From Amycolatopsis sp. cg9 (lineage in GTDB: Bacteria > Actinomycetota > Actinomycetes > Mycobacteriales > Pseudonocardiaceae), in assembly GCF_041346945.1 (NCBI RefSeq), contig NZ_CP166850.1, positions 7,734,501 to 7,798,500 of the forward strand: 64,000 nucleotides of DNA, written 5' to 3'. The notes beneath the pieces are model-generated. The model was given only the letters and a program-made list of their open reading frames with translations, ran no database searches and was not told the origin of the DNA. This document shows, piece after piece, positions 2,289-19,118 of this stretch. The position numbers and the translations under genes were made by a program. Within the stretch, counting starts at the first letter, position 1; every line of letters starts with the position of its first letter.

Positions 2289-5200
2289 ATGCGTCTCTCG
2301 AAAGACGACTCCGCGCCGGCCGGGCTGGTCGTCGCCGTGTCGCCGCTGCGATGGCCGTCCGCGCGCGGGGTCGCCGCCGCCGCGCGCGGGGGCGGGCTCG
2401 GCGTGCTCGACCTGACCGGCGGGGACGCCGCCGGCGCGGAGGAGCTCGCGCTGCTGGGCGAATGGGGGATCCCGGCGTTCGGGGTCCGGCTCGCCGGCCC
2501 GCCCGCGGGTGCGGAACTGCCCGAAGCCGTCACCACCGTCCTGCTGACCGAAGACGCCGGGTGCGCGGCGCGCGACTTCCCGGGCCGCCGGGTGCTGGCC
2601 GAGGTCACCTCCCGCGCGTCGGCCGAGCGGGCGGTCGGCGGCGGCGCGCACGGTCTCGTCGCCCGCGGTCGCGAATGCGGTGGCCGGACCGGGGAACTGA
2701 GCACGTTCGTGCTGCTGCAGGCCTTGCTCGGGAACTTCGACGTCCCGGTGTGGGCCGCGGGCGGGATCGGGCCGCACACCGCCGCGGCCGCGATCGCCGG
2801 TGGTGCCGCCGGCGTCGTGCTCGACACGCAGCTCGCCCTGCTGCCGGAGGCCGAGCTGCCGTCGCGGCTCACGACCGGCCTGGCCGGGCTCGACGGGTCG
2901 GAAACGACCGTCGTCGACGGCGTCCGCGTGCTCGCCCGCCGGGGCGCCGAACCGCTCGAAGCGGGCCAGGACGTCTTCCTCGCCACCCGGTTCCGCGACC
3001 GCTGGGGCACGGTGACCGCGGCGGTCCGCGGCCTGGCCGACGCCGTCGGGGAGGCGCTGCGCGGGGAAACGCCGGTGCTGGGACCGGCCGGCGCGGGCCG
3101 CCGCGCGCTCGGCACGGCGCTGCCGATCGCGCAGGGCCCGATGACCCGGGTCAGCGACCAGCCCGCGTTCGCCGCCGAGGTCGCGGCGGGTGGGGCGCTG
3201 CCGTTCATCGCGCTGGCCCTGTCCGGTGCGGAGCAGACCCGCGAAGTCCTGGACCGGACCCGCGAAGCCGTCGGCGACGCGCCGTGGGGCGTCGGGGTGC
3301 TGGGGTTCGCCGCCGACGACGTCAAAGCCGCCCAGCTGGCGGTGATCCGGGAGCTGCGGCCGACCCACGCGATCATCGCCGGTGGCCGCCCGGCGCAGGC
3401 GGCGGTCCTGGAGGACGCCGGCATCTCGACGTTCCTGCACGTGCCCTCGCCCGGGCTGCTCAAGCAGTTCCTCGAGGCCGGGGCGCGCAAGTTCGTCTTC
3501 GAGGGCTCGGAGTGCGGCGGCCACGTCGGGCCGCGCACCAGTTTCCCGCTGTGGGAAGCGCAGCTGGGCGTCCTCGCCGACTTCCTCGCCACCACCCCGG
3601 ACGCGGCCGCGCAGCTGCAGCTGCTGTTCGCGGGCGGCGTCCACGACGAACGGTCGGCCGCGATGGTGGCCGCGCTCGCCGCGCCGGTGGCCGAGCGAGG
3701 TGCGGCGATCGGGGTGCTGATGGGCACCGCGTACCTGTTCACGCGCGAGGCCGTCGCGGCGGGCGCGGTGCTGCCGGGGTTCCAGCGGCAGCTGCTGGCC
3801 GCCCGGCACACCGATCTGCTGGAAACCGCGCCGGGGCACGCCACCCGCTGCGTCCGCAGCCCGTTCACCGAGGAGTACGCGGCGATCAAGGCGGACCTCG
3901 CCGGGCGGGGCGTGCCGAGCCGGGACGCCTGGGAACAGCTGGAGACGCTCAACGTCGGGCGCCTCCGCCTGGCGAGCAAGGGCATCGAGCGCGTGGGCGC
4001 CGAACTGCGCGCCGTCGGCGAGGACCGGCAGCTCGCCGAGGGCATGTTCATGGCGGGCGAGGTCGCGGTGCTGCGCTCGGCCGTGACGACGATCGCCGAG
4101 CTGCACCACGCGGTGGGGGACGGCGCGGACGCGTTCCGGCGCGCGCGGGCCGCGGAGTTCGGCGGCACCGCACCGGAGCCCGGCGCGCCCGAGCCCCTCG
4201 AAATCGCGATCGTCGGGATGGCGTGCCTGTTCCCGCAGGCCCCCGATCTGGCGTCGTACTGGGCCAACGTGCTGTCCGGGGCGGACGCCGTCACCGAGGT
4301 CCCGCCGCAGCGCTGGGACCCGGCGCTGTACTACGACCCCGAGGGCCAGGGCGCGGGGACGCCGTCGCGCTGGGGCGGGTTCCTGCCCGAGATCGGGTTC
4401 GACCCGCTGCGCTACGGCATCCCGCCGTCGTCGCTGGCCAGCATCGAACCCGTGCAGCTGCTGGCCTTGGAGGCCGCGCACCGGGCGCTGGTGGACGCCG
4501 GGTACGAGCACCGCGCGTTCGACCGGTCGCGGACGTCGGTGGTGTTCGGCGCCGAGGCGGGCAGCGACCTGTCGAACGCGATGACGCTGCGGACCGTGCT
4601 GCCGTCCTACGTCGGCGGACTGCCCGCCGAACTGGACGAACGGCTGCCGCGGCTCACCGAGGACTCGTTCCCGGGGGTGCTGGCCAACGTCATCGCCGGG
4701 CGGATCGCCAACCGGCTCGACCTGGGCGGCGCGAACTACACCGTCGACGCGGCCTGCGCGTCGTCGCTGACCGCCGTCGACGTCGCGTGCAAGGAACTGA
4801 CCGCCGGCACCAGCGACCTCGTCCTCTGCGGCGGCGCGGACCTGCACAACGGCATCAACGACTACCTCCTGTTCGCCTCGGCGCACGCGCTCTCGCCGAC
4901 CGGGCGGTCGGCGACGTTCGACAGCGCGGCCGACGGCATCGCGCTCGGCGAGGGTGTCGCCTGCGTCGCGCTCAAGCGGCTGGCCGACGCCGAACGCGAC
5001 GGCGACCGGGTGTACGCGGTGATCAAGGGCGTCGGCGCGGCGTCCGACGGCCGCGCGCTCGGGCTGACCGCGCCCCGGCCGGAAGGCCAGCGCACCGCGC
5101 TGACCCGCGCCTACCGCAACGCCGGCGTCTCGCCCGCGCGCGTCGGGCTCGTCGAGGCGCACGGCACCGGCACGGTCGTCGGCGACCGGACCGAGCTGGC

Positions 5201-8200
5201 CACGCTGACGAAGGTGTTCAGCGAGGCCGGTGCCGCGCCGGGCGGCTGCACGATCGGGTCGGTGAAGTCGCAGATCGGGCACACCAAGTGCGCCGCGGGC
5301 CTGGCCGGGCTGATCAAGACCGCGCTCGCGCTGCACACCGGCGTCAAACCGCCGACCCTGCACATCTCGGCGCCGAACCCGGCCTGGGACGCCGAGACCA
5401 GCCCGTTCGTGTTCCAGTCGGCCGCGCAGCCGTGGGCCGCGCCGGCCGCGGACCGGATCGCCGGGGTCAGCGCGTTCGGCTTCGGCGGGACCAACTTCCA
5501 CGTCGTGCTGGGCGCGCACGACAGCGTGCCCCCGGCTCAGGCGGCCGACGAGTGGCCCGCGGAGCTGTTCACCTTCGAGACGGAGGCGGCGGCGCGGGAC
5601 CTGCTGGCGCTGGCCTCGGACGTGCCGGCCGGGTACGAGCCGTGGCGGTTGCGGGACCTGGCGCTGAGCACGTCGCGGCGGGCGGCGGGCCGGGCGGCGC
5701 GGCTCGCCGTGGTCGCGTCCACTGTGGACGAACTGGTGTCACGGCTGCGCGAGGCGCTCGACGGGCGCGATCCGGCCGGGGTGTTCCGCGGCGACGGGAG
5801 CGAACCCGGTTCGGTGGCGGTGCTGTTCCCCGGCCAGGGCAGCCAGCGGCCGGGCATGTTCGCCGAGCTGTTCGTCGCCTTCCCGGACCTGCAGCGGTAC
5901 CTGCGCCTGGACCCGGTGACCGCCGGCGCCGTCTTCGGGCCCGCGGTGTTCGGCGAGGCGGCGCGCCAGGCGTCGGCCGACCGGGTCACCGACACCCGCG
6001 TCGCCCAGCCCGCGCTCGGCCTCGCCGGCCTGGCGGCGTTCCGGCTGCTGACCCGGGCCGGCGTGCGGCCCGCGATGCTGGGCGGGCACAGCTACGGCGA
6101 GCTGACCGCGCTGGCGGCGGCCGGGTCCCTCACCCCCGAGGGACTGCTGCACGCGAGCCACGCCCGTGCGGGGGCGATCCTGGACGCGGTGCCCGCGTCG
6201 GACCCGGGTGCGATGGCCGCGGTGTCGGCGTCCGCCGCCGACGTCCGCGCGGCCCTCGGCTCGTCGCCGGTCGTGCTGGCCAACCACAACTCGCCGAAGC
6301 AGACGGTGATTTCCGGGGCGACGGCGGACGTCACGGCGGCGGTCGAGCGGCTGCGTGGAGCCGGGCTGGGCGCGAAACGGCTCCAGGTGGCCTGCGCGTT
6401 CCACAGCCCGCTGGTGGCCGCCGCCGGTGCGGCGTTCGGCCGCACGCTGGGCGCGATCGGCGTCGTCCGGCCGGCCATCCCGGTGTACGGCAACCGGACG
6501 GCGGCGCCCTACCCGGCCGGCCCGGACGAGATCCGCGGCGAGCTGGCGGCGCAGCTGGGCGCGCCGGTGCGGTTCGTCGAGCAGATCGAGGCGATGTACG
6601 CGGCCGGGGCGCGGGTGTTCGTCGAGGCGGGACCGGGCGCCGTGCTGGCCGGGCAGGTCGAAGCGATCCTCGGCGACCGTCCCCATCGGACGGTCGGCTT
6701 CGAGCAGCCGGGCCGCCGCGGCCTGCCGGGCTTCCTCGGCGCGCTGGCACGGCTGGCGGTGTCCGGCGCACCGCTCGAGACCGGCTGGCTGTTCCGCGGC
6801 CGCGACGCGGTCGACGCGGCGACGGCCCCGCGGCCGAAGCGCCCGGGCTGGACGGTCGACGGCCACCTGCTCCGCACCGCGGACGGCACGATCCCGGCGG
6901 GCGCGCTGCGGCCGGCCTCGCGGGTCACGCTGGGACCGCCCGCCGCGGCGGCACCGACGTCGGAGGCGATGGTCGCGGACTTCCTGCGGACCAGCCGCGA
7001 GATGATCGCCGCCCAGCGGGACGTCCTGCTCGGCTTCTTCGGCAGCGCGGAAGCACCCGTGCCGAAGCGCCCCAATGTGGCGTTGGTTGCGTCCAACGCA
7101 CCGAACGCCACATTGGGTGCGTCAGACGCACCGAACGCCACATTGGGGCGCTCGGTGCTGGAGACGGTCGTCGCGGTGATCGGGGAGCGGACGGGCTATC
7201 CGGTCGAGATGATCGAGCCGGACCTCGATCTCGAGGCGGATTTGAGCGTGGATTCGATCAAGCGCGCGGAGATCGCGGGCGAGCTGGCGGCCCGGCTCGG
7301 CCTCACCGGCGGTGACGTCGAGGAGTTCGCGAAGGCCCGCACGGCCGCGGCGATCGCCGAGCTGATCGGGGCCCCGCAGCCGCCTTCGGCCGGCACCTCG
7401 GTGCTGGAGACCGTGGTCGCGGTGATCGGGGAGCGGACCGGCTACCCGGTGGACATGATCGAGCCGGATCTCGATCTCGAAGCGGACCTGAGCGTCGACT
7501 CGATCAAGCGGGCCGAGATCGCCGGGGAGCTGACCGTCCGCCTCGGCACCGGCGACGTCGAGGTGCTGGCCAAGGCCCGGACCGCGGCGGGGATCGCGGA
7601 GCTGCTGGGTGCGGGCGAAGCGGACCGCGCCGAACCACAGCCGGTGACCAGTGAGCCCGAGCCCGTGATCGTCGCGCCGAAGCGGTACGTCCTGGCCGAG
7701 GTCGCGCTCGCCCCCGCCGGCACCCCCGACATCGCCGGCCGCCGGTTCCTGGTCCTCGGCTCCGGCGCCTTCGCCGACGACGTCCGCGCCGAACTCGGGG
7801 CCCACGGCGCCGAGGCCGAAACCGGCGAGGACGTCCGCCCCGGCTTCGACGGGTACCTGTTCCTCGCCCCCGTCCTGCCCGCCGCCTTCTCCCGGTACCG
7901 GGACGCCCTCGCCCAGTACCCCCGGTGGCTGCTCAGCGCCGGACCGGCCGAGGGGCTCCGAGGGTTCCACCGCAGCGTCGCCCGCGAATACCCGGACACG
8001 CTCACCCGGGTCGTCGAAGGCGCGGGCGCCGCCGGCTTCGTCGCCGAACTGTCCACACCGGACCGCGAACCGGTCGTCGTGCACCGCGGGACCACCAGGC
8101 ACGGCATCGAACCCGCCGAGGAAAGCCTGGGCCTGCTCGCCGGCAGCGGCGCGGGCCCCGCGGGCGACGGCGTGGCCGAAGCCGCCGCCATCGGGCTGGA

Positions 8201-9029
8201 CCGCGAGTCGGTCGTCCTGCTCGTCGGTGGCGCCAAGGGCATCACCGCCCGGTTCGCCGGCACCCTGGCCGCGACCACGCGGTGCCGCGTCGAGCTGCTC
8301 GGCCGGACGCCGGTCCCGGCCGCGGAAGACGAGTACCCGCAGGCGAAAGACGCCAAGGCGCTCCGCGCCGCCCTCATCGGCGCGGGCCTGAAGAACCCCG
8401 CCGAAATCGAGCGGGCCGTCCGGCGGATCACCGGCGAACGCGAGGTCCGCACCACCCTCCGAGAGCTCGAGGCGCTCGGCAGCCCGGTGCGCTACCAGTC
8501 CGTCGACATGCTCGACGCCGAAGCCGTCCACCGCGCGGTCAAGGAGATCCACGCCGAACACGGGCGGCTCGACGGGATCGTCTACGCCGCCGGCGTCATC
8601 GAGGACAAGCTCGTCAGGGACAAGACGCCGGAGTCCTTCGCCCGCGTCTACAGCACCAAAGTGGACGGTGCGGACACCCTCCTCGAAGCGACCGCCGACC
8701 TGCCCGACGAGCCGAAGTTCGTCGTCCTGTTCGGCAGTATCGCCGCCGCGCTCGGCAACCGGGGCCAGGCCGACTACGCCGCGGCGAACGACGCCCTCGA
8801 AGCGCTCGGGCGGCGGTGGCCAGCCGGGCGCGCGGTGACCGTCCACTGGGGACCGTGGGCACCGGCCGGCGAGCACGACGGGATGGTCACCCGCGAGCTC
8901 ATGCGGGACTACGCCCGCCGGGGCATCGCGCTGATCGACCCCGAGGAAGGCACCCTCGGGCTGCTGCGCGAGCTGGCCTGGGGCCGCGCCGGCACCGCCG
9001 CCGTCGTCCACACCGCGTCCGGGTGGTGA
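2289..9029 (+). CDS. Iterative type I synthase NPD-NPD-KS-AT-ACP-ACP-KR (PfaD-PfaA-like fusion)
   Basis: This 2246-residue synthase resembles a fusion of PfaD and PfaA from polyunsaturated fatty-acid (secondary lipid) synthases. Residues ~1-600 hold two nitronate-monooxygenase (NPD) barrels; the second has GSECGGHVG with His412, while the first has ECGGRTG with Arg133. The KS starts near 637 with nucleophile Cys823 (DAACASS) and later VEAHGTGT and SQIGHTK histidines. The AT carries GHSYGE with Ser1268. Two ACPs have LSVDSIKR motifs (Ser1656 and Ser1738). A large PfaA-type KR fills ~1975-2230. There is no DH or thioesterase; the next protein supplies DH. The ATG at 2289 follows GGGAG. The stop overlaps the GTG of the next gene. 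The two ACPs are nearly identical, as in other multi-ACP lipid synthases. The product is unknown, and a reduced or partly unsaturated acyl chain is inferred. Confidence 0.88.
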   Translation: MRLSKDDSAPAGLVVAVSPLRWPSARGVAAAARGGGLGVLDLTGGDAAGAEELALLGEWGIPAFGVRLAGPPAGAELPEAVTTVLLTEDAGCAARDFPGRRVLAEVTSRASAERAVGGGAHGLVARGRECGGRTGELSTFVLLQALLGNFDVPVWAAGGIGPHTAAAAIAGGAAGVVLDTQLALLPEAELPSRLTTGLAGLDGSETTVVDGVRVLARRGAEPLEAGQDVFLATRFRDRWGTVTAAVRGLADAVGEALRGETPVLGPAGAGRRALGTALPIAQGPMTRVSDQPAFAAEVAAGGALPFIALALSGAEQTREVLDRTREAVGDAPWGVGVLGFAADDVKAAQLAVIRELRPTHAIIAGGRPAQAAVLEDAGISTFLHVPSPGLLKQFLEAGARKFVFEGSECGGHVGPRTSFPLWEAQLGVLADFLATTPDAAAQLQLLFAGGVHDERSAAMVAALAAPVAERGAAIGVLMGTAYLFTREAVAAGAVLPGFQRQLLAARHTDLLETAPGHATRCVRSPFTEEYAAIKADLAGRGVPSRDAWEQLETLNVGRLRLASKGIERVGAELRAVGEDRQLAEGMFMAGEVAVLRSAVTTIAELHHAVGDGADAFRRARAAEFGGTAPEPGAPEPLEIAIVGMACLFPQAPDLASYWANVLSGADAVTEVPPQRWDPALYYDPEGQGAGTPSRWGGFLPEIGFDPLRYGIPPSSLASIEPVQLLALEAAHRALVDAGYEHRAFDRSRTSVVFGAEAGSDLSNAMTLRTVLPSYVGGLPAELDERLPRLTEDSFPGVLANVIAGRIANRLDLGGANYTVDAACASSLTAVDVACKELTAGTSDLVLCGGADLHNGINDYLLFASAHALSPTGRSATFDSAADGIALGEGVACVALKRLADAERDGDRVYAVIKGVGAASDGRALGLTAPRPEGQRTALTRAYRNAGVSPARVGLVEAHGTGTVVGDRTELATLTKVFSEAGAAPGGCTIGSVKSQIGHTKCAAGLAGLIKTALALHTGVKPPTLHISAPNPAWDAETSPFVFQSAAQPWAAPAADRIAGVSAFGFGGTNFHVVLGAHDSVPPAQAADEWPAELFTFETEAAARDLLALASDVPAGYEPWRLRDLALSTSRRAAGRAARLAVVASTVDELVSRLREALDGRDPAGVFRGDGSEPGSVAVLFPGQGSQRPGMFAELFVAFPDLQRYLRLDPVTAGAVFGPAVFGEAARQASADRVTDTRVAQPALGLAGLAAFRLLTRAGVRPAMLGGHSYGELTALAAAGSLTPEGLLHASHARAGAILDAVPASDPGAMAAVSASAADVRAALGSSPVVLANHNSPKQTVISGATADVTAAVERLRGAGLGAKRLQVACAFHSPLVAAAGAAFGRTLGAIGVVRPAIPVYGNRTAAPYPAGPDEIRGELAAQLGAPVRFVEQIEAMYAAGARVFVEAGPGAVLAGQVEAILGDRPHRTVGFEQPGRRGLPGFLGALARLAVSGAPLETGWLFRGRDAVDAATAPRPKRPGWTVDGHLLRTADGTIPAGALRPASRVTLGPPAAAAPTSEAMVADFLRTSREMIAAQRDVLLGFFGSAEAPVPKRPNVALVASNAPNATLGASDAPNATLGRSVLETVVAVIGERTGYPVEMIEPDLDLEADLSVDSIKRAEIAGELAARLGLTGGDVEEFAKARTAAAIAELIGAPQPPSAGTSVLETVVAVIGERTGYPVDMIEPDLDLEADLSVDSIKRAEIAGELTVRLGTGDVEVLAKARTAAGIAELLGAGEADRAEPQPVTSEPEPVIVAPKRYVLAEVALAPAGTPDIAGRRFLVLGSGAFADDVRAELGAHGAEAETGEDVRPGFDGYLFLAPVLPAAFSRYRDALAQYPRWLLSAGPAEGLRGFHRSVAREYPDTLTRVVEGAGAAGFVAELSTPDREPVVVHRGTTRHGIEPAEESLGLLAGSGAGPAGDGVAEAAAIGLDRESVVLLVGGAKGITARFAGTLAATTRCRVELLGRTPVPAAEDEYPQAKDAKALRAALIGAGLKNPAEIERAVRRITGEREVRTTLRELEALGSPVRYQSVDMLDAEAVHRAVKEIHAEHGRLDGIVYAAGVIEDKLVRDKTPESFARVYSTKVDGADTLLEATADLPDEPKFVVLFGSIAAALGNRGQADYAAANDALEALGRRWPAGRAVTVHWGPWAPAGEHDGMVTRELMRDYARRGIALIDPEEGTLGLLRELAWGRAGTAAVVHTASGW
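5717..5729. repeat. GTCCACTGTGGAC palindrome in the KS-AT linker
   Basis: The element encodes Ser-Thr-Val-Asp in the linker after the KS. It uses the codons TCC-ACT, which are unusual for this GC-rich coding sequence. Confidence 0.7.
7067..7151. repeat. 85-base inverted/direct repeat element inside the synthase linker
   Basis: The ends form a perfect 18-base inverted repeat (GCGCCCCAATGTGGCGTT at 7067-7084 against its complement at 7134-7151). Between them, the right-hand arm and its neighbour are repeated directly, so the protein reads NAPNATLGAS-DAPNATLGRS. The element lies between the AT and the first ACP and stays in frame, lengthening a flexible linker. It is more AT-rich than the surrounding gene. 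It looks like an intragenic palindromic repeat of the REP type, not a domain. Confidence 0.75.
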
Positions 9030-12000
9030 CCGGGATGCGCGTGGCGATCGTCGGGATGTCGGTGCTGCTGCCCGGGGCCCCGGACCTGGCCGCCTACTGG
9101 CGCAACCTCGCCGGCGGCGTCGACGCCATCACCGAGGTCCCGCCGGAGAAGTGGGACGGCACGCACTACGCGCCGGACGAGCGGCGGGCCGACCGGGTCT
9201 ACTGCCGCCGCGGCGGGTTCGTCGACGAGCTGGCCGAAGTGGACGTCACCGGGTTCGGGATCATGCCGAACTCCGTGCCCGCCACCGAACCCGACCAGCT
9301 GATCGCGCTGCGGGTCGCCGCGCAGGCCCTCGCCGACGCCGGCGGCCCGGACCGCCTGCCCGCGGACCGGGCGAAGGTCGGCGTGGTGCTCGGCCGCGGC
9401 GGCTACCTGACACCCGGTCTCGTCCGGCTCGACCAGCGCGTCCGCACCGCGACCCAGCTGGTCCGCACGCTCGGCGAGCTGATGCCCGGACTCGGCGCGG
9501 ACCAGCTCGACGCCGTCCGGCAGGCCTTCACCGACCAGCTCGGCCCGGAGGCCCCCGAGTCCGCGATCGGGCTGGTGCCCAACCTCGCCGCGTCGCGGCT
9601 GGCCAACCGCCTCGACCTGCGCGGCCCGGCCTACACCGTGGACGCCGCGTGCGCGTCCTCCCTGATCGCCGTCGACCACGCCGTCCGCGAACTCGCGAGC
9701 GGGCGCTGCGACGTCGTCCTCGCCGGCGGCGTGCACCACTGCCACGACATCACCTTCTGGAGCGTCTTCACCCAGCTCGGCGCCCTTTCGCCGACCGAGC
9801 GCATCCGGCCGTTCCACCGCGACGCCGACGGTGTGCTCATCGGCGAAGGCACCGGCGTCGTCGTGCTCAAGCGCCTCGCCGACGCCGAACGGGACGGCGA
9901 CCGCGTCTACGCCGTGATCACCGGGACCGGCGTCGCCTCCGACGGGCGGACCGCGAGCCTCGCCAACCCCGACTCCGGCGGCCAGGTCCGCGCGGTTCGC
10001 CAGGCGTGGGCCGCGGCCGGGCTCGACCCCGCCGAACCGGACTCGATCGGCCTGCTGGAGGCGCACGGCACCGCGACCCCGGCCGGCGACGCGGCCGAGC
10101 TCGCCACTCTCGCGGAGGTCTTCGGCAGCGCCGGCGCCGCCGTGCTCGGCTCGGTCAAGTCGATGATCGGGCACACCATGCCCGCGGCCGGCATCGCCGG
10201 GCTCGTCAAGGCCGCGCTGGCCGTGCACCACGGCGTCCTGCTGCCCACCCTGCACTGCGACGACCCGCACCCCGGCCTCGCGCGGACCCGCTTTTCCACT
10301 TTGGACACCGCGAAGGAGTGGGACGCGGCCGTGCGCCGGGCCGGGGTCAACGCGTTCGGGTTCGGCGGGATCAACGCCCACGTCGTGCTGGAACAGGCCC
10401 CGGGCCGCCCGGTACCCGCCGCCGTCGTCCGCGAACCGGAACGGGTGCTGCGCCTGGCCGCCCGGTCGGCCGGGGAGCTGAGGGACCTGCTCGAGGCGCC
10501 CGGCACGCCGGTGACCGGCGACGGCCCGGTCCGGCTCGGTGTCGTCGACCCGACCGAAAAGCGGCTGGCGCTCGCCCGGAAGGTCCTCGCCCGCGGCCGG
10601 GCCTGGCGGGGCCGCAACGACGTCTGGTTCGCCGACCGCCCGCTGCTCGGGCCGGGCGGCGGGAAGGTCGCCTTCGTGTTCCCCGGCCTGGAGTCGGAGC
10701 TGGCGCTGAACTGCGGCGACGTCGCCCGCCACTTCGGGCTGCCGTGGCGGCACGGGGACGTCGAAGTCGGCGACGTCGGCCGCCAGGGCACGGCGGTGTT
10801 CGAGCTGGGCCGGCTGCTCAACGCCGCGCTCGGCCGGCTGGGCGTCGTCCCGGACGCGGTCGCCGGGCACAGCCTGGGGGAGTGGACGGCGATGGCCGTG
10901 GCCGGCCTGCACGCCGAGGCGGAGGTCGACGCGTTCCTCGCCGGGTTCGACCCCGACGCGCTCGTCGTCCCCGGCCTCGCGTTCGCCGCGATCGGCGCGC
11001 CCGCGCCGCGGGTGACCGAGGAGCTGGCCGGGTGCTCGGACGTCGTGCTCTCCCACGACAACTCGCCCAACCAGGCCATGGTCTGCGGTCCGGCCGCCGC
11101 CGTGACCGCGCTCGTCACGCGGTTCCGCGACGCCGGGATCGTCGCGCAGGTGCTGCCGTTCCGGTCCGGGTTCCACACCCCGATGCTGCGGCCGTACCTG
11201 GACCCGATCCGCGCCGCGGCCGCCCGGTTCACCCTGCACCCGCCGCGGCTGCCGATCTGGTCGGCGACCACGGTCGCGGAGTACCCGGCCGGCGAAGCGG
11301 AAGTCCGCGAGCTGTTCGTGCGGCACCTGCTGGAACCGGTCCGGTTCCGGCCGCTCGTGCGGGCGCTGCACGCCGCCGGGTTCCGCGCGTTCGTCCAGGT
11401 CGGCGCGGGCCAGCTCGGCTCGCTGGTCGGCGACACCCTGCACGGCGAGGAGCACCTGGTCGTGGCGGCGCACTCGGCGCACCGGCCCGGGCTCGCGCAG
11501 CTGCGCCGGGTCGCGACCGCGTTGTGGACCGAGGGCGCCGGCCTCGACTTCGGCCGGCTGCCCGGCGAACGCGGGGTGCCGTCGAAGGCGGTCAAGCTGG
11601 ACCTCGGCGGCCGCCTGATCTCCCTCGACGAAGGCGTCCGCGCGCGCATCGCCCTCCCGGCCCGCCGATCCACAGTGGACGACCTGGCCGGGAAGGGCCC
11701 GCTCGCCGCGGAACTCGCCGCCCTGCTGACCGACACGGCCCAGCTGGCGTCCACCGCCCTCGCCGGTGCCGCACTTTCACGTGAAAGTGCGGACCCAGGT
11801 GATCACTTTCACGTGAAAGTGCCGAGGGAGCTGGACACGACGCTCGAGGTGTCGGTCGAGGCGATGCCGTACCTGCTCGACCACTGCTTCTTCAAGCAGC
11901 CGCCGGGAGCCGACCCGGGCGACCGCTGGCCGGTCGTCCCGGCGACGACGGTGATCGACCACCTGATGGGGTTCGCCGAGCGGGCCGCGCCCGGCTGCCG

Positions 12001-13330
12001 CGCGGTCGCGGTGCACGACGTCCGGCTCACGCAGTGGATCACCGCGGTCCCGGCGGTCAGCGTGGGCGTCCGGGTCCGCCCGCACGGCCCCGGCCGGGTC
12101 CTCGCCGCGCTGGACGGCTACTCCCAGGCCGTCGTGGAGCTCGCCCCGGCCCACCCGGGCGGCGCACCGGCCCCGTGGCGCTTCCCCGCGTCGGCGGAGC
12201 AGGTCCCCGAGACGACGGCCGCCGAACTGTACGCCGACCGCTGGATGTTCCACGGGCCGCGCTTCCAGGGCGTCATAGAGCTGACCGCCGTCGGCGAGCG
12301 GCACGTCCGGGCCGTGCTGACCACGCCCGCCGCGCCCGGCGCACTGCTCGACAACGTCGGCCAGGTGCTCGGCTACTGGATCATGTCCCGGCTGGCCGAA
12401 CGCACCACCGTGTTCCCGGTGGCGATGCGCGAAATCCGGTTCCACGGCCCGCACCCGGCGCCGGGGGAGCGGCTGGAGTGCCTGGTGAAGATCACCGGGC
12501 TGACCGGGGAATTCCTCGACGCCGACATGCAGCTCGTCCACGACGGAGCGGTGTGGGCCGAGTTCACCGGCTGGCGCGACCGCCGGTTCGACAGCACCGC
12601 GCACATCCGCCAGGCCGACCGGACGCCCGAGCGCTCGACGCTGTCGATCGAGCAGCCGGGCGGCTGGGCGCTGGTGCACGAGCAGTGGCCGGACCTGGCC
12701 ACCCGCGAGCTGATCATGCGCAACTACCTCGCCGGCGCCGAGCGCGACGCCTACGAACGCCGTCCGCCGCGCGGGCGGCGGCAGTGGCTGCTCGGCCGGA
12801 TCGCCGCGAAGGACGCCGTCCGCCAGTACCTCTGGGCGCGCGGCGAGCCGGCGATGTTCCCGGCCGAGCTGCGCGTCGGCAACGACGACGCCGGGCGCCC
12901 GTTCGTGACCGGCGCCTACGGCCGGGAGCTGCCGCCGCTGACGATCTCGGTGGCGCACCGGGCCGAGGCGGGCGTGGCGATCGCCCGGCCCGGGCCCTGC
13001 GGCATCGACGTCGAAGAGGTCGGGGCGCGGCGGGAATCCACTGTGGACGCCGCGCTGGGTGCGGCCGAGCAGGCCTTGTTCGCGGGCTTGCCCGGCGATC
13101 CGGAACGGTGGTTCGCCCGCTTCTGGACGGCGAAGGAAGCCGTCGCGAAGCTGCTCGGGACCGGCCTGCGCGGCGAGCCCCGCGACTTCGAAGTCGTCGC
13201 GGCCGCGCCGGCGGAGCTCACCGTCCGCGCCGCCGGGCGGGACCACCTCGTCCACTGCGCCGACGCCGACCGGCCGCCGCGCCGCTACGTCGTCGCCTGG
13301 ACCGAAGAGACGAAGGAGACAGCCGGATGA
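9026..13330 (+). CDS. Iterative type I synthase KS-AT-DH with C-terminal phosphopantetheinyl transferase
   Basis: This 1434-residue partner of the upstream synthase has four regions. The KS (1-~470) has Cys209 in DAACASS plus LEAHGTAT and SMIGHTM. The AT-like domain (~545-830) has GHSLGE with Ser616. The dehydratase region (~925-1180) is a double hotdog with His953 in LLDHCFF and WMFHGPRFQG in the second half. The last ~170 residues form an Sfp-type 4'-phosphopantetheinyl transferase with GIDVEEV and WTAKEAVAK. The fused transferase could activate the ACPs of this locus, the role PfaE has in PUFA systems and the C-terminal domain has in enediyne synthases. It starts at a GTG overlapping the previous stop and ends in an ATGA overlap with the ACP gene. 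Which KS elongates cannot be settled, as both have intact cysteines. Confidence 0.87.
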   Translation: MTGMRVAIVGMSVLLPGAPDLAAYWRNLAGGVDAITEVPPEKWDGTHYAPDERRADRVYCRRGGFVDELAEVDVTGFGIMPNSVPATEPDQLIALRVAAQALADAGGPDRLPADRAKVGVVLGRGGYLTPGLVRLDQRVRTATQLVRTLGELMPGLGADQLDAVRQAFTDQLGPEAPESAIGLVPNLAASRLANRLDLRGPAYTVDAACASSLIAVDHAVRELASGRCDVVLAGGVHHCHDITFWSVFTQLGALSPTERIRPFHRDADGVLIGEGTGVVVLKRLADAERDGDRVYAVITGTGVASDGRTASLANPDSGGQVRAVRQAWAAAGLDPAEPDSIGLLEAHGTATPAGDAAELATLAEVFGSAGAAVLGSVKSMIGHTMPAAGIAGLVKAALAVHHGVLLPTLHCDDPHPGLARTRFSTLDTAKEWDAAVRRAGVNAFGFGGINAHVVLEQAPGRPVPAAVVREPERVLRLAARSAGELRDLLEAPGTPVTGDGPVRLGVVDPTEKRLALARKVLARGRAWRGRNDVWFADRPLLGPGGGKVAFVFPGLESELALNCGDVARHFGLPWRHGDVEVGDVGRQGTAVFELGRLLNAALGRLGVVPDAVAGHSLGEWTAMAVAGLHAEAEVDAFLAGFDPDALVVPGLAFAAIGAPAPRVTEELAGCSDVVLSHDNSPNQAMVCGPAAAVTALVTRFRDAGIVAQVLPFRSGFHTPMLRPYLDPIRAAAARFTLHPPRLPIWSATTVAEYPAGEAEVRELFVRHLLEPVRFRPLVRALHAAGFRAFVQVGAGQLGSLVGDTLHGEEHLVVAAHSAHRPGLAQLRRVATALWTEGAGLDFGRLPGERGVPSKAVKLDLGGRLISLDEGVRARIALPARRSTVDDLAGKGPLAAELAALLTDTAQLASTALAGAALSRESADPGDHFHVKVPRELDTTLEVSVEAMPYLLDHCFFKQPPGADPGDRWPVVPATTVIDHLMGFAERAAPGCRAVAVHDVRLTQWITAVPAVSVGVRVRPHGPGRVLAALDGYSQAVVELAPAHPGGAPAPWRFPASAEQVPETTAAELYADRWMFHGPRFQGVIELTAVGERHVRAVLTTPAAPGALLDNVGQVLGYWIMSRLAERTTVFPVAMREIRFHGPHPAPGERLECLVKITGLTGEFLDADMQLVHDGAVWAEFTGWRDRRFDSTAHIRQADRTPERSTLSIEQPGGWALVHEQWPDLATRELIMRNYLAGAERDAYERRPPRGRRQWLLGRIAAKDAVRQYLWARGEPAMFPAELRVGNDDAGRPFVTGAYGRELPPLTISVAHRAEAGVAIARPGPCGIDVEEVGARRESTVDAALGAAEQALFAGLPGDPERWFARFWTAKEAVAKLLGTGLRGEPRDFEVVAAAPAELTVRAAGRDHLVHCADADRPPRRYVVAWTEETKETAG
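11669..11679. repeat. TCCACAGTGGA palindrome in the AT-DH linker
   Basis: It encodes Ser-Thr-Val within RRSTVDDLAG, about 100 bases before the larger palindrome pair in the same linker. Confidence 0.7.
11771..11821. repeat. Paired CACTTTCACGTGAAAGTG palindromes inside the synthase gene
   Basis: A 20-base perfect palindrome (11771-11790) and an 18-base perfect palindrome (11804-11821) flank a 13-base spacer that contains CCCAGGTG. The pair is in frame and encodes ALSRESADPGDHFHVKVP in the linker before the dehydratase. The same architecture, with the spacer inverted, occurs between genes at 18187-18240, so this is one repeat family and not a protein feature. The AT-rich cores stand out from the surrounding gene. 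Confidence 0.85.
13037..13047. repeat. TCCACTGTGGA palindrome in the PPTase region
   Basis: It encodes Ser-Thr-Val inside RRESTVDAALG, within the transferase domain and between its GIDVEEV and WTAKEAVAK motifs. Confidence 0.7.
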
Positions 13331-13632
13331 GCGTCGAGACCACGGCCACGGACGAGGAAACCGTCCTCGCGCAGCTGGCGGGGATGCTTCGGGAACTGCT
13401 GGCGGAGTACGGCCTGGACGACGCCGAGATCACGATGGACACGACGTTCCACGACGACCTCGAACTGGAGAGCGTCGACCTGGTGGCGCTGTCGGGGCAG
13501 CTGCGCGAGCACTACGGCGACCGCGTCAACTTCGCGACCTTCATCGCCGAGCGGGACCTCGACGAGATCATCGCGCTGACCGTCGGCGAGCTCGTCCGGT
13601 ACACCGTCGCCTCGCTGCGGGCTACCGCGTGA
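13327..13632 (+). CDS. Discrete acyl carrier protein
   Basis: This 101-residue acidic protein has the carrier-protein motif DLELESVDLVAL, with Ser49 as the expected phosphopantetheine site. It starts in the stop of the upstream synthase (ATGA) and ends in a GTGA overlap with the hydrolase, so it is translated as part of the operon. Its motif (LESVDL) differs from the LSVDSIKR motif of the built-in ACPs. It probably serves a separate step such as starter loading or transfer to a tailoring enzyme, which is inferred. The fused transferase of the neighbouring synthase could activate it. Confidence 0.88.
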   Translation: MSVETTATDEETVLAQLAGMLRELLAEYGLDDAEITMDTTFHDDLELESVDLVALSGQLREHYGDRVNFATFIAERDLDEIIALTVGELVRYTVASLRATA

Positions 13633-14435
13633 GCCGGATCCGGGCGGGCGAGCTGGACGTGCACGTCCAGCGGCTCACGCCCGACGTGCCGCTCGACGGG
13701 GACGCGCCGCTCGTGGTGTGCGTCCACGGCCTGCTGACCGACAGCCTCGCCAGCTACTACTTCACCCTCGGCCCGGCGCTGGCCGCGCGCGGCCTCGACG
13801 TCCTGATGTACGACCTGCGGGGCCACGGCCGCACGACGCGCCCGGAATCGGGGTACCGGCTGGAGGAGTTCGTCGACGACCTCGTCGCCGTCCTCGACGC
13901 CTGCGGTGCGACGCGGCCGGTGCACGTGGTCGGCAACTCCTTCGGCGCGTCGGTGGCGTTCGGGCTGGCCGCCGCCCGGCCGGACCGGGTCGCGAGCGTC
14001 ATCGCGATCGAGGGCGAACCACCGACCGCGGCGTGGACGCAGCACATGGCGGACGGCCTCGCGGACGCCAAGACCCGGCTGGCGATCGACGAGGTGATCG
14101 GCTGGATCGCGGACAACCACGGCGCGCACACCGCGCGGCTGTCGAAGGCCGCGCACCGGATCCTGGAGACCACGACCATCGCCGAGGACGTCCCGCGCAG
14201 CGCGACCATCGCGGCGGACCTGTCGGCCGTGCGCTGCCCGGTGTTCGCGATCTTCGGCGGTGACTCCGGGCTGGCCGCCCAGGTCCCGGACTTCGAGGCG
14301 AACCTGCCGCGCTGCCGGTGCACCGTGCTGGCCGACCAGGGGCATTCGGTGCTGGTGGAGCGGACCGCCGAGGTGATCGACCTGGTTTTCGAGTGGGTCC
14401 GCGACACCTCGCGCGCGCCGGCCCGGGTGCGGTAG
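13629..14435 (+). CDS. Alpha/beta hydrolase (possible chain-release enzyme)
   Basis: This 268-residue hydrolase has the oxyanion HGLLTDS segment, nucleophile Ser104 in GNSFGA and catalytic His239 in DQGHSVLV. It has no signal peptide, so it acts in the cytoplasm. It is locked into the synthase operon by GTGA with the ACP and by a one-base overlap of its TAG stop with the glycosyltransferase GTG. Neither synthase has a thioesterase domain, so a role in releasing the acyl chain or hydrolysing a thioester is likely. The family alone would also allow an esterase acting on the finished product. Confidence 0.8.
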   Translation: MSRIRAGELDVHVQRLTPDVPLDGDAPLVVCVHGLLTDSLASYYFTLGPALAARGLDVLMYDLRGHGRTTRPESGYRLEEFVDDLVAVLDACGATRPVHVVGNSFGASVAFGLAAARPDRVASVIAIEGEPPTAAWTQHMADGLADAKTRLAIDEVIGWIADNHGAHTARLSKAAHRILETTTIAEDVPRSATIAADLSAVRCPVFAIFGGDSGLAAQVPDFEANLPRCRCTVLADQGHSVLVERTAEVIDLVFEWVRDTSRAPARVR

Positions 14436-15601
14436 TGGCCCGGTTCCTGTTCGTCGTCCCGCCGCTGGTCGGGCACGTCAACCCGGCCGCCGGCGTGGCG
14501 GGCGAGCTCACCGCGCGCGGGCACGAAGTCGCCTGGGCGGGCCACGACGAGCTGCTGTGGCGGCTGGCCGGCCCGGACGCGCTCGTGTTCTCGTGCGCCG
14601 TGCCACCGGAGGTCCCCGAGCGCCCGCCGGACCTCAAGGGGCCCGCCGCGCTGCGGTTCCTCTGGCAGGACTTCCTCGTCCCGCTGGCCGACGCCATGGC
14701 GCCCGGAGTGGCCACCGCGCTGGACGTGTTCGAGCCGCACGTGGTGGTCGCCGACCAGCAGGCGCTGGCCGGCGGGCTGCTCGCCGAAGCGCACGGCCTG
14801 CCGTGGGTCACCTCGGCGACCACGTCGGCCGAGCTGGTCGACCCCCTGGCCGGGATGCCGAAGGTGGCCGGCTGGGTCGGCGAGCTGCTCGACGGCCTGC
14901 GCGCCCGGATCGCCGGCGGCCGCGGCACGGCCGACCCCCGGTTCTCCCCGCACGGCGTGCTCGCCTTCACCACCCGCGAACTGCTCGGCGCGGCCGCGCT
15001 GCCGCCGCGGGTCCGGCTGGTCGGCCCGGCCCTCGGCACCCGGCCGTCCACAAGCGACTTCCCGTGGGAGTGGCTCGACCCGCTCCGCCCGGCCGTGCTC
15101 GTCTCCCTCGGCACGGCGAACACCGGCGCGGGTGTGGAATTCCTGGCGGCGACGGCGGAGGCGTTCGCCGGCCTGCCCGCCCGCGCGGTGATCGCCGACC
15201 CGGGCGGGGTGCTCGGCGCGGTCCCGCCCAACGTCCTCGTGCGGCCCTCGGTCCCGCAGCTGCCGCTGCTCGCGCGGGTCGACGCGGTGCTGTGCCACGC
15301 GGGCCACAACACGGTGTGCGAGGCGCTGTGGCACGGCCTGCCGCTGGTGGTCGCGCCGATCCGCGACGACCAGCCGATCGTGGCGGCCCAGGTGGTCGCC
15401 GCGGGCGCGGGGATCCGCCTGCGCTTCGGCCGCGCCGACCGCGCGCGGATCACCACGGCGCTCGAGGAAGTGCTGACGGAGCCGTCGTACCGCCGTGCGG
15501 CCGAGGCGGTGGCGGCTTCGTTCCACGCGGCGGGCGGCAGCGCCGCGGCGGCCGGGCACCTCGAGCAGCTCGCGCTGGAGAGCCTGCTGCCGGGAACTTG
15601 A
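14435..15601 (+). CDS. UGT/MGT-family glycosyltransferase
   Basis: This 388-residue GT-B enzyme resembles macrolide and antibiotic glycosyltransferases. The N-terminal half has FVVPPLVGHVNP, typical of acceptor-binding domains. The C-terminal donor domain has DAVLCHAGHNTVCEALWHGLPLVVAPIRDDQ, the usual HxG...E...G.P nucleotide-sugar signature. The GTG start overlaps the hydrolase stop, so it closes the tightly overlapping operon. It probably glycosylates the lipid or polyketide made by the two synthases. No sugar-nucleotide biosynthesis genes lie nearby, so the donor is likely a common UDP- or dTDP-sugar from general metabolism, which is inferred. Confidence 0.85.
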   Translation: MARFLFVVPPLVGHVNPAAGVAGELTARGHEVAWAGHDELLWRLAGPDALVFSCAVPPEVPERPPDLKGPAALRFLWQDFLVPLADAMAPGVATALDVFEPHVVVADQQALAGGLLAEAHGLPWVTSATTSAELVDPLAGMPKVAGWVGELLDGLRARIAGGRGTADPRFSPHGVLAFTTRELLGAAALPPRVRLVGPALGTRPSTSDFPWEWLDPLRPAVLVSLGTANTGAGVEFLAATAEAFAGLPARAVIADPGGVLGAVPPNVLVRPSVPQLPLLARVDAVLCHAGHNTVCEALWHGLPLVVAPIRDDQPIVAAQVVAAGAGIRLRFGRADRARITTALEEVLTEPSYRRAAEAVAASFHAAGGSAAAAGHLEQLALESLLPGT

Positions 15602-15639: not shown

Positions 15640-16119
15640 ATGACTGTTTCCGTGTGCGCTCCGAGTGACGTCCCGGCGCTGGTGGCTTCGGCCGCGGCCC
15701 TGTTCGCCGAAGACGGCGGCCGTCGCGATCCGTTCATGGACACCGGCTGGCCCGCGCGCGAAGGCCAGGCCTACTACGCCGGCCTCGTCGAAGACCCGGC
15801 CTGCCTGTGCCTGCTCGCCGCCGGCGGGCACCTGATCGGGCGGCTGCGACCCGCCGACCCGCTACGGCCCGGCGCGGTGCGCGCGGTGCTGGAAAGCATG
15901 CGGGTCGGCCCGGAACACCGCCGGTCCGGCGCCGGCGCCGAACTGGTCGCGGCTTTCCTCTACTGGGCAAGGGACAACGGCGCGAACGACGTCACCGTCA
16001 CGGCCTACGCGGCCAACCACGGTGCGCTCGAGTTCTACCGCGCGCAGGGCTTCGAGCCGTTCGAAGTGGTGCTGCGTCACCGGAACGAGTGGCTATCCAC
16101 AGTGGACCCGGCGCACTAG
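15640..16119 (+). CDS. GNAT-family N-acetyltransferase
   Basis: This 159-residue protein has the GNAT core: a beta strand AVLESMRVGPEHRRSGAGAELVAAFLYWA carrying the acetyl-CoA loop (RRSGAGA) and a late AYAANHGALEFYRAQGFEPF, the classic motif B. It stands 38 bases after the glycosyltransferase with no overlap, so it may be outside the synthase operon. The acceptor cannot be predicted. Its last codons contain one of the TCCACAGTGGA palindromes. Confidence 0.8.
   Translation: MTVSVCAPSDVPALVASAAALFAEDGGRRDPFMDTGWPAREGQAYYAGLVEDPACLCLLAAGGHLIGRLRPADPLRPGAVRAVLESMRVGPEHRRSGAGAELVAAFLYWARDNGANDVTVTAYAANHGALEFYRAQGFEPFEVVLRHRNEWLSTVDPAH
16096..16106. repeat. TCCACAGTGGA palindrome at the GNAT 3' end
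   Basis: It encodes Ser-Thr-Val in the final WLSTVDPAH of the acetyltransferase. Confidence 0.7.
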
Positions 16120-16148: not shown

Positions 16149-18182
16149 ATGACGGCCACCGCGGAGATCGCCCACGAACCGGGGCCCGCGCCGCTGAGCA
16201 AGGGGCGCGTCAACGCCGTCTTCGGCGCCGTGCTGCTCGGGATGCTGCTGGCCGCGCTGGACCAGACCATCGTCGGGACGGCGCTGCCCACCATCGTCGG
16301 CGACCTCGGCGGCGCCGGGCACCTGTCCTGGGTCGTCACGTCCTACCTGCTCGCCGAGACCATCATGACCGTCGTCGTCGGCAAGCTCGGCGACCTCTTC
16401 GGGCGCAAGCTGATGTTCCAGCTGTCCGTGGTCGTGTTCGGCATCGGCTCGTTCTTCGCCGGGTTCGCCGACAGCATGGTGTGGCTGATCGTCTGGCGCG
16501 CGGTGCAGGGTCTCGGCGGCGGCGGGCTGATGGTCACCTCGACCGCGCTCATCGCCGACGTCGTCCCGCTGCGCGAGCGCGGCAGGTACCAGGGCGTGCT
16601 CGGCTCGGTGTTCGGCGTGGTGACCGTCGCGGGCCCGATGCTCGGCGGCTTCTTCGTCGACCACCTCTCCTGGCGCTGGGCGTTCTACGTCAACATCCCG
16701 CTGGTCGTCGTGGTGCTGGTGGTGGCGTCCTCGGCGATGCCGAACGCCCGCGCCGCGGTCAAACCGGTCATCGACTACCTCGGCATCCTGCTGATCGGCC
16801 TGGCCGCGACCGGCCTGACCCTGGTCACGAGCTGGGGCGGCACGCAGTACGCGTGGGGCTCGCCGACGATCATCGGGATGGCGATCGGCTCGGTGGTGCT
16901 GCTCGCCGCGTTCGTCTTCGTCGAACTGCGGGCGAAGGAACCGATGCTGCCGATGCGGTTGTTCCGCAACCCGGTCTTCACCGTCGGCGGGATCATGAGC
17001 TTCGTCGTCGGTTTCGCGATGCTCGGCGCGCTGTCCTACCTGCCGACGTACATGCAGTACGTCCAAGGCACGTCGGCGACTTCGTCCGGCGTCCGGTTGC
17101 TGCCGATGGTGCTGGCGCTGCTCGTGGCGTCGATCGCGGCCGGCAACGCGGTGAGCAAGACCGGGCGGTACAAGATCTTCCCCTTGGTCGGCGCGGCGGG
17201 GATGACGATCGGGCTCTACCTGCTGTCCCGGCTCGACACCGACACCGGCTTCTGGGAGGCGTCGGCGTACATGGCCGTGCTCGGCCTCGGCATCGGGCTC
17301 GGCATGCAGGTGCTGACCATCGCCGTGCAGAACACGGTCGACTACGCCGATCTCGGCGTCGCCACGTCGGGTGTGACGTTCCTGCGCTCGATCGGCAGCT
17401 CGTTCGGCGCGGCGATCTTCGGCACGGTGTACGCCAACCAGCTGACGCCGAACCTGGCCGCGGCGGTGGCCTCGGTGCCCCCGGGCGTCGACCCGCGGGC
17501 GCTGCAGGTGCCCACGGCCTTGCACGCGCTGCCGGACGCGGTGTCCGCACCGGTGATCAAGGCGTACAGCGACTCGTTGCACGTGGTGTTCCTGGCGGCG
17601 GCGCCGGTCGGCCTGGTCGCCTTCGCGCTGGCGTTCTTCCTCAAGGAGGTCCCGCTGCGCGACACCGCCCGCGCGGCGGCCCCGGACCTCGGCGACGGCT
17701 TCGCGATGCCGGAGGCCCGCACGGACGACCGCGAGCTGGAACGCGCGGTCGCGACCCTGTTCTTCCGCGAGCGCCGCAAGGTGGCCCCGGCGATCGTCGA
17801 CCGGGCCGGCAGCGACCTCGACGAGGGCGGCATCTGGTGCCTCCTGCAGGTCCACCTGCGCGAACGCCGCGGCGAGCCGGCGACGCTGAAGGCGATCGGC
17901 GACCACTTCGGCGTCCCGGCGCCGGTGCTCGAACCGGCGTTCAACCGCCTGGAGCTGACCGGCCACCTGCGCTACACGCGCGACGGCTGGGAGCTGACCG
18001 GCGCGGGCCGCACGGAGTTCGCGAAGGTGGTCGGCGCCTGGCACGACTGGCTGGCCGACCGCCTCGGCGACTGGGGCACCGGCAACCGCGCCGACCTCGA
18101 CGCGGCGATCGGCCGCGTGGCGGCCCGCCTGCTCGACCAGAGCGCGGAAACCCGCTCCCACGGCCGGCACGCGCTGGCCTGA
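16149..18182 (+). CDS. DHA2-type MFS exporter with C-terminal winged-helix domain
   Basis: This 677-residue protein has a 14-helix drug:H+ antiporter part (residues ~20-510), with LDQTIVGTALPTI in helix 1, GKLGDLFGRK in the 2-3 loop and GPMLGGFFVDHLSWRWAFYVNIP (motif C) in helix 5. The last ~150 residues are soluble and resemble a winged helix: GEPATLKAIGDHFGVPAPVLEPAFNRLELTGHLRYTRDGWELTGAG. Such fusions occur in actinobacterial MFS proteins. The domain may sense cargo or regulate transport from the cytoplasmic side, which is not known. The gene lies just after the synthase locus on the same strand and may export its product. GGCGCGAG precedes the ATG. Confidence 0.85.
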   Translation: MTATAEIAHEPGPAPLSKGRVNAVFGAVLLGMLLAALDQTIVGTALPTIVGDLGGAGHLSWVVTSYLLAETIMTVVVGKLGDLFGRKLMFQLSVVVFGIGSFFAGFADSMVWLIVWRAVQGLGGGGLMVTSTALIADVVPLRERGRYQGVLGSVFGVVTVAGPMLGGFFVDHLSWRWAFYVNIPLVVVVLVVASSAMPNARAAVKPVIDYLGILLIGLAATGLTLVTSWGGTQYAWGSPTIIGMAIGSVVLLAAFVFVELRAKEPMLPMRLFRNPVFTVGGIMSFVVGFAMLGALSYLPTYMQYVQGTSATSSGVRLLPMVLALLVASIAAGNAVSKTGRYKIFPLVGAAGMTIGLYLLSRLDTDTGFWEASAYMAVLGLGIGLGMQVLTIAVQNTVDYADLGVATSGVTFLRSIGSSFGAAIFGTVYANQLTPNLAAAVASVPPGVDPRALQVPTALHALPDAVSAPVIKAYSDSLHVVFLAAAPVGLVAFALAFFLKEVPLRDTARAAAPDLGDGFAMPEARTDDRELERAVATLFFRERRKVAPAIVDRAGSDLDEGGIWCLLQVHLRERRGEPATLKAIGDHFGVPAPVLEPAFNRLELTGHLRYTRDGWELTGAGRTEFAKVVGAWHDWLADRLGDWGTGNRADLDAAIGRVAARLLDQSAETRSHGRHALA

Positions 18183-18186
18183 GCAC

Positions 18187-18240
18187 GCACTTTCACGTGA
18201 AAGTGCGCACCTGGGGCGCGCACTTTCACGTGAAAGTGCG
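18187..18240. repeat. Paired GCACTTTCACGTGAAAGTGC palindromes between convergent genes
   Basis: Two palindromes (18187-18206 and 18219-18240, the second extended to 22 bases) are separated by a spacer containing CACCTGGGG. The unit fills the gap between the MFS gene and the PHP gene. Each palindrome could fold into a hairpin without a U-tract. It is the intergenic, inverted counterpart of the copy at 11771. Confidence 0.85.
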
Positions 18241-18242
18241 GG

Positions 18243-19079
18243 TCAGCGGCGCCAGAAGTCGTGTGGGGTGCGGCCCGGGCGGAAGCCGCAGGACTCGACG
18301 AGCGCGGCGGCCTCGGCGAACCCCCTCCCGACCAGGCCGGGCTCGTGGGCGTCACTGCCGAAGGTGACCGCCTCGCCGCCGTCCTGGAACCACCAGCGCA
18401 CGACCTCGCCCGGCAGCGGCACCTGCGTGTTGACCTCCAGGGCCCGCCCGCTCGCCTTGAGCGCGCGCAGCACCGCGCGGAACTCCTCCTCGTAGTCCGC
18501 GGCCGCGAACGGTGGGCCCTCGGAGGGCCACGAACGCAGCGCGTAGTCGATGTGCGCGAGCACCGCGAAGTCCGCCGTCGACTCGACCAGGCCGAGCACC
18601 TCGGTCAGGTACGCCCGCAGGATGTCGCCGGGCGGCCGCCCGGAAACCACGCTCAGCTCGTGGTGGTGTTCGCCGTCCGGGAGCGAGTGCACCGAGCCGA
18701 GCACCCGGTCGAAGCCGTGGGCCGCGAGCAGCGCGTCGGCGCGTTCGCGGTGCCAGTGCGGCTCGCTCAGCTCGACGCCGGAGAGGATCCGCAGCGACGG
18801 GAACCGCTCCCGGCACTCCGCGACGCACGCCAGGTAGCCCTCGACGTCGAGGTCCGGCGGTTCGAGGACGCCGTCCGGGCGCAACCGCACCCGGAAGTGC
18901 CCGGGGAGCAGGGGCCGGACCGGCTCGGGGATCAGCCACGGCGTCAGGTCCGCGTGCTCGGTGAACGCCACCGAGGGCAGGCCGAGTTCGAGCGCCCGCT
19001 CGCAGGAGCCGAGCATGGACCCGGTGACCGTGTCCCAGGACCACTCGGTGTGCACGTGACCGTCCGGCGGGAGGCTCAT
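18243..19079 (-). CDS. PHP-domain phosphoesterase (histidinol-phosphatase-like)
   Basis: This 278-residue protein carries all PHP metal-site motifs in order: HVHTEWSWD at the start, FTEHAD, SGVELSEPHWH, GSVHSLP, AHIDY and GSDAHEP. PHP enzymes bind two or three metal ions and hydrolyse phosphoesters. The best known stand-alone members are HisK-type histidinol-phosphate phosphatases. No histidine genes lie nearby, so the substrate is open. It is divergent from the LigD-type polymerase with about 40 bases between starts, so they share a promoter region. PHP domains are also attached to DNA polymerases, so a nucleic-acid link is conceivable but unsupported. Confidence 0.82.
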   Translation of the reverse strand: MSLPPDGHVHTEWSWDTVTGSMLGSCERALELGLPSVAFTEHADLTPWLIPEPVRPLLPGHFRVRLRPDGVLEPPDLDVEGYLACVAECRERFPSLRILSGVELSEPHWHRERADALLAAHGFDRVLGSVHSLPDGEHHHELSVVSGRPPGDILRAYLTEVLGLVESTADFAVLAHIDYALRSWPSEGPPFAAADYEEEFRAVLRALKASGRALEVNTQVPLPGEVVRWWFQDGGEAVTFGSDAHEPGLVGRGFAEAAALVESCGFRPGRTPHDFWRR

Positions 19080-19118
19080 GGGCCCACGTTAACGGCGATG
19101 TGGGTTAAGTTCGGGACC

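Follow-up and report, generated by a model that had tools for sequence, protein, structure and literature searches.

The 64,000-nt window of the Amycolatopsis sp. cg9 genome, that is, the whole stretch of DNA that was analyzed, carries at positions 2289-15601 five genes on one strand, here named A to E, which overlap successively by 4, 4, 4 and 1 bases. Genes A and B encode a large, two-protein synthase composed of NPD, ketosynthase (KS), acyltransferase (AT), acyl carrier protein (ACP), ketoreductase (KR), dehydratase (DH) and phosphopantetheinyl transferase (PPTase) domains, and genes C, D and E encode a free ACP, a hydrolase and a glycosyltransferase. None of the five reading frames is interrupted in the window. 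The host genome is 10.6 Mb in two contigs, and the nearest B proteins are from Amycolatopsis. The features are given below, where the residue counts come from alignments of 72 A proteins and 81 B proteins, the window included; A proteins shorter than 80% of the length of the window A were excluded.

2289..9029, + strand: gene A, ATG start, 2246 amino acids (aa), NPD1-NPD2-KS1-AT1-ACP-ACP-KR
2289..3074, + strand: NPD1, divergent FabK/PfaD-like domain, Arg133 at the catalytic His position
3075..4118, + strand: NPD2, flavin mononucleotide (FMN) enoyl-reductase-like domain, motif ECGGH, proposed catalytic His412 in 72/72
4200..5666, + strand: KS1, Cys823, His958 and His998 invariant in 72 A proteins
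5814..6770, + strand: AT1, GHSYGE, malonyl-type Gln1240 and Arg1293 in 72/72
7146..7640 (approximate limits), + strand: two tandem ACP domains of the polyunsaturated fatty acid (PUFA) type, PP-binding matches
8211..8861, + strand: KR, Ser in 69/72 and Tyr in 70/72
9026..13330, + strand: gene B, GTG start, 1434 aa, KS2-AT2-DH-PPTase
9038..10495, + strand: KS2, Cys209, His347 and His383 invariant in 81 B proteins
10583..11575, + strand: AT2, GHSLGE, Gly588 at the malonyl-binding Gln position and Ala639 at the Arg position
11813..12625, + strand: DH of the polyketide synthase (PKS) type, His953 and Asp1109 in 81/81
12698..13300, + strand: PPTase domain, motifs AGRP and ISVAH
13327..13632, + strand: gene C, ATG start, free ACP, Ser49 in 81/81
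13629..14435, + strand: gene D, GTG start, alpha/beta hydrolase with a GNSFG nucleophile motif
14435..15601, + strand: gene E, GTG start, GT1/UGT glycosyltransferase

The domains were called with Pfam and NCBIfam, and Pfam matches were taken at E 0.001. Gene A matched NMO (two stretches), ketoacyl-synt, Acyl_transf_1, PP-binding (two stretches) and KR, and gene B matched ketoacyl-synt, Acyl_transf_1, PS-DH and ACPS. PP-binding was found in gene C, Abhydrolase and, weakly, Thioesterase in gene D, and UDPGT/EryCIII-like in gene E. The best NCBIfam match of gene A was PfaA, with 880 bits against a curated cutoff of 1010. An initial annotation made from the letters of the sequence had proposed these five genes, their domain order and overlaps of 1 to 4 bases, all of which were borne out. 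The GTG start of gene B is an assumption, and the in-frame ATG at 9035 would abolish the A/B overlap.

A search with an alignment of B gave 298 relatives in the species genome collection, of which the best 80 loci were analyzed; these are from Amycolatopsis, Streptomyces, Kitasatospora, Kribbella, Actinosynnema, Actinophytocola, Umezawaea, Allokutzneria, Streptantibioticus and Wenjunlia, and from two further strains. All five genes were found on the same strand and in the same order in 79 of the 80 loci (tblastn with the window proteins and an order check), which excludes chance, and the sole miss, L019, is a 6.5 kb contig starting inside B. Gene E was matched in 80/80. Pairwise identities of the genes correlate across 72 sequences (A-B 0.97, B-D 0.91, B-E 0.87; 0/300 permutations each), and the catalytic residues remain nearly invariant while the pairwise identity of A and B spans 56-97%. 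No further gene family is common to all 80 loci; the largest reaches 53/80 with loose linkage and 39/80 with stricter linkage, one of the families is a methyltransferase, and several example frames of the neighboring families had no Pfam match. For the wider genome searches the DH-PPTase part of B alone was used, own genome counted, so that the following counts are silent on the other genes: this part was present in 67/80 genomes of the genus (E 1e-30), in 54/394 sampled genomes and 13/138 genera of the class (E 1e-30), and in 7/296 genomes of the phylum, including three that lie outside the class (E 1e-20). We then have 24 distant loci, hand-picked (20 from the class search, three out-of-class and one more) and scanned with domain hidden Markov models built from the 80 loci, which contain C in 24/24, D in 24/24 and E in 23/24. 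Contig ends truncate L093 and L103, leaving A partial or absent there. L109 encodes a B protein identical to a Nocardioides gilvus record, and several other relatives of this protein are named Acidimicrobiales. By these homology searches, C, D and E are near-constant members of the A-B system.

The catalytic residues of gene A predict one working and one degenerate NPD domain. NPD1 is probably non-catalytic, since Arg133 occupies the position of the catalytic His, as does Arg in 58 of the 72 A proteins, and its FabK match is weak and partial. Enoyl reduction is predicted for NPD2 because its His is kept in all 72 proteins. The Ser of AT1 is invariant as well. The number of tandem ACPs varies: a strict motif search of 71 relatives found one in 47, two in 23 and none in one. 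Inactivity of both KS domains, which the initial annotation had named as grounds for giving up its reading, appears improbable from their residues, as the Cys is present in every KS1 (72/72) and every KS2 (81/81).

Gene B has a single KS stretch followed by AT2, i.e., no pair of a KS and a chain length factor (CLF) in the Pfam matches. The Ser of AT2 is invariant in the 81 B proteins. In contrast to AT1, AT2 lacks the usual malonate Gln-Arg pair: in the alignment, as well as in a pairwise comparison with a FabD, the Gln position is Gly (80/81), and the Arg column has Ala in 43 proteins, Arg in 5 and various residues in the others. This pair is also missing from PfaB, which PMC12895367 identifies as a terminal long-chain acyltransferase. 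The PPTase varies more, its first Asp being replaced in 9/81 and the ISVAH His being present in 79/81. Neither a CLF nor a FabA-type DH/isomerase was among the Pfam matches at E 0.001; the PS-DH of B was the sole DH, with none in A.

The linker between AT2 and DH of gene B also contains two copies of a perfect 16-base palindrome, ACTTTCACGTGAAAGT, which are translated in two frames (ALSRES and HFHVKV). The palindrome occurs 5 times in the window (11773-11788, 11805-11820, 18189-18204, 18222-18237 and 57220-57235) and 129 times in the genome, against 0 for a backwards-read control, and the listed copies are often paired about 33 bases apart. Among 109 loci, of which L001 is the window's own genome, one copy each was found in the B genes of four Amycolatopsis loci (L006, L007, L018 and L027).

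In gene D, the nucleophile of the GNSFG motif is Ser in 72 and Cys in 9 of the 81 proteins. Gene E keeps an N-terminal His in 79/80 and a DQ pair in 80/80. RhlA and RhlB are the rhamnolipid pair; we do not claim D-E as its mirror, and no chain named RhlA was found among the 60 of 212 solved relatives that were listed for D.

The architecture strongly suggests that the operon is a member of the Type M secondary lipid synthases, a type with an uncharacterized product. In Shulse & Allen 2011 (PMC3098273), Type M is a PfaA-like synthase with an associated PPTase in actinobacteria, with Actinosynnema mirum, Frankia, Renibacterium and Streptomyces avermitilis as members; both traits are shared by the present operon and nothing compared differs. 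Close relatives of B were found in two of these genera, Actinosynnema (L044, A. pretiosum) and Streptomyces (P0057, S. avermitilis, 69%). Pseudofrankia, which we take to be kin of the Type M-listed Frankia, carries the B-type proteins P0252 and P0253. The PPTase motifs described for the Type M-T side are x(G/D)xP (P1a) and hShxH (P1b') with no P0 motif hRxhLS; B has AGRP and ISVAH, and the P0 motif was not seen in B by eye. The synthase of Renibacterium salmoninarum, still called uncharacterized in 2026, consists of a fused pfaDA and a fused pfaBC with a PPTase domain according to PMC13291983, and both of its fused proteins, ER-KS-AT-ACP-KR (ER, enoyl reductase) and KS-AT-DH-PPTase, have counterparts here, a likeness by description. 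A further candidate member may be the type I PKS that PMC3848822 describes as conserved across all Frankia strains. The words 'glycosyl', 'hydrolase' and 'thioesterase' are absent from the main text of PMC3098273 in the form available, and hence C-D-E were apparently not regarded as belonging to Type M.

Several other systems resemble the operon in part. The marine PfaA-E systems likewise have KS-AT-ACP(n)-KR, a PfaD-type ER, an AT without the Gln-Arg pair and a PPTase, whereas the present operon has two NPDs, one of them degenerate, and a glycosyltransferase, with no CLF or FabA-type DH/isomerase found. The initial annotation, which saw the PfaA to PfaE activities in two genes, was therefore right about the domain content but went too far in equating the systems. 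The heterocyst glycolipid (hgl) islands combine a PfaA-like synthase with a glycosyltransferase, HglT, and make a long-chain glycolipid; they have 13 conserved genes including an ABC transporter and hglT (PMC11804610), and an hgl island was taken to need seven or more HG genes, the ABC transporter among them. The 80 loci, by contrast, have a block of five genes in common, in a comparison that did not look for hgl genes by sequence. The hybrid PUFA-like clusters of Aquimarina and Flavobacterium, compared with the Renibacterium synthase in PMC13291983, are joined to lines of PKS and nonribosomal peptide synthetase, while here the free ACP, the hydrolase and the glycosyltransferase stand in their place. 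Two PfaD-type ER domains in one synthase are also found in the thraustochytrid ERb/ERc heterodimer; however, ERb and ERc each retain the catalytic His and bind FMN (PMC13311796), whereas here NPD1 is without the His and the two NPDs are in tandem on one chain.

Taken together, we propose that genes A to E probably form a self-contained glycolipid operon of the Type M kind, which agrees with the view in the initial annotation of a compact two-protein synthase of the secondary-lipid type with dedicated release and glycosylation genes, and makes its suggestion of a glycolipid probable. In the proposed pathway, the PPTase domain of B would charge the carrier domains, AT1 would load malonyl units, and KS1 would condense them in repeated rounds. 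Each unit would be reduced by KR, the PKS-type DH and NPD2 to give a reduced chain, with NPD1 perhaps serving as a structural partner of NPD2, and KS2 may perform special or late elongations. AT2, without the malonate pair, would pass the completed chain to C, the free ACP. D would then release the chain, or re-esterify or transfer it, and E may attach a sugar either to the carboxylate or to a hydroxyl that remains after the final KR step.

The genes, their order, their conservation and the catalytic residues are direct observations, and several points weigh against the glycolipid operon built on them. The evidence is sequence comparison throughout, and beyond the residue level we infer the chain length, the reduction state, the hand-off to C, the role of D, the sugar acceptor and donor, and the cellular role. 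Since the 80 loci were the nearest relatives, they are no unbiased sample, and the correlation of gene distances reflects shared descent besides shared function. Among the distant loci, no E was found in L090 over the 6.7 kb covered beyond D on the downstream side, and in L095 E and some A/B domains appear as two pieces. The analogy between AT2 and PfaB is incomplete because AT2 retains the GHS His in 81/81 where PfaB has Tyr; moreover, five B proteins still have Arg at the Arg column. Many hydrolase families match gene D at scores under their cutoffs, and none is decisive. Lastly, gene E scores best against the macrolide-family glycosyltransferases (TIGR01426, 159 bits, cutoff 260), and such enzymes can serve self-protection.

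From this last point, the lipid could be the product as such, with E acting in self-protection or export rather than as the final builder, a reading also suggested by the EmrB/DHA2-type transporter of the major facilitator superfamily (MFS) downstream in the window. We consider it unlikely, since E is present in 80/80 loci while the GNAT gene that separates E from the MFS gene was detected in 8/80, the spread of the MFS gene itself not being counted. That the synthase makes PUFAs for membrane lipids in the manner of PfaA-E, with D and E as accessory genes, would agree with PfaA being the best match of A and with the presence of ER, KR and DH, and PfaA-like clusters in two other actinobacterial genomes are annotated as omega-3 PUFA synthases (PMC3910706 and PMC4210621) and may or may not be of this type. 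The PfaA score below the curated cutoff and the recurrence of E in the close and distant loci speak against a PUFA synthase, and methylene-interrupted cis-PUFAs are an unlikely product because neither a CLF nor a FabA-type DH/isomerase was found; we thus give this explanation little credence.

An equally small chance is left to a polyketide product, a conjugated polyene or an enediyne-like compound, to which the sugar is later attached. Enediyne PKSs are composed of KS-AT-ACP-KR plus DH and PPTase, and one distant locus with fused A and B and no KS2 (L107) approaches their order. However, the enediyne PKS is a single KS-AT-ACP-KR-DH-PPTase protein without ER, whereas the present synthase has two proteins, two KS domains and an NPD2 His that is intact in 72/72 and predicts enoyl reduction, and no extra family is common to the 80 loci, although the enediyne cassette genes were not searched by name. 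A non-functional relic cluster would fit the replaced PPTase Asp in 9/81, the degenerate NPD1 and the genome-wide repeat in the AT2-DH linker of B, but is very improbable in view of the five open frames and of catalytic residues that stay near-invariant at 56-97% identity of A and B.

Natural variants already hint at which parts of the proposed glycolipid operon are essential. The own genome has a second A-B-C-D-E block (L005, C1:720001-740000), in which B is 53% identical, NPD1 is shortened, A has one ACP match and the PPTase is only partly recognizable; one genome therefore has two diverged versions of the five-gene unit. KS2 is absent in four of the 24 distant loci (L091, L093, L107 and L108), as the gap between KR and AT2 is 0.3-0.5 kb and too short for a KS. 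It follows that KS2 is dispensable in some lineages, where KS1 must elongate unless a KS is supplied from elsewhere. In L107 (1993-12087), A and B are fused in one open frame of ~10 kb. A methyltransferase homologue was found in 39/80 loci, and in 37 of them it lay close enough to E to count as adjacent under the limits used. It appears as a lineage-specific gene downstream of E, for example at L067:16715-18064. In the out-of-class relative L106 (12479-13922), there are two tandem genes similar to hydrolase D.

In 2011 no product was known for Type M synthases, and in the openly licensed PubMed Central literature we found none since, and no description of C-D-E or of this gene order. This extends the remark of the initial annotation that no characterized product was known for the gene order; the singularity it implied did not hold, since the architecture fits Type M and recurs widely in actinobacteria. 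To the described type, the present comparison adds near-constant release and glycosylation genes, the loss of the malonyl pair in AT2, a degenerate NPD1 and a KS2 that can be absent. The free ACP, the hydrolase and the glycosyltransferase are near-constant from Amycolatopsis and Streptomyces to Nocardioides and the out-of-class genomes, which narrows the hunt for the product from an open-ended one to a specific one, for a glycolipid dependent on A, B or E. As a tentative and bolder idea, the Type M cassette might be a pathway to an unrecognized class of glycolipids across the actinobacterial phylum, in which one polypeptide system would build the chain, a malonyl-blind AT would move it to a dedicated free ACP, and the hydrolase-UGT pair would finish it, with the second KS dispensable and the inactive NPD1 forming an internal pseudo-dimer with the working NPD.

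Outside the operon, 8 frames at 22-49 kb of the window were scanned with Pfam, and the single match obtained fell below the cutoff. The genes flanking the operon are as follows.

393-1532, - strand: pyridoxal-phosphate-dependent enzyme gene, upstream of the operon
15667-16119: GNAT acetyltransferase, directly downstream of the operon, in 8/80 loci, all Amycolatopsis
16191-18182: EmrB/DHA2-type MFS exporter, downstream of the GNAT gene
18261-20069: gene with a LigD primase-polymerase domain

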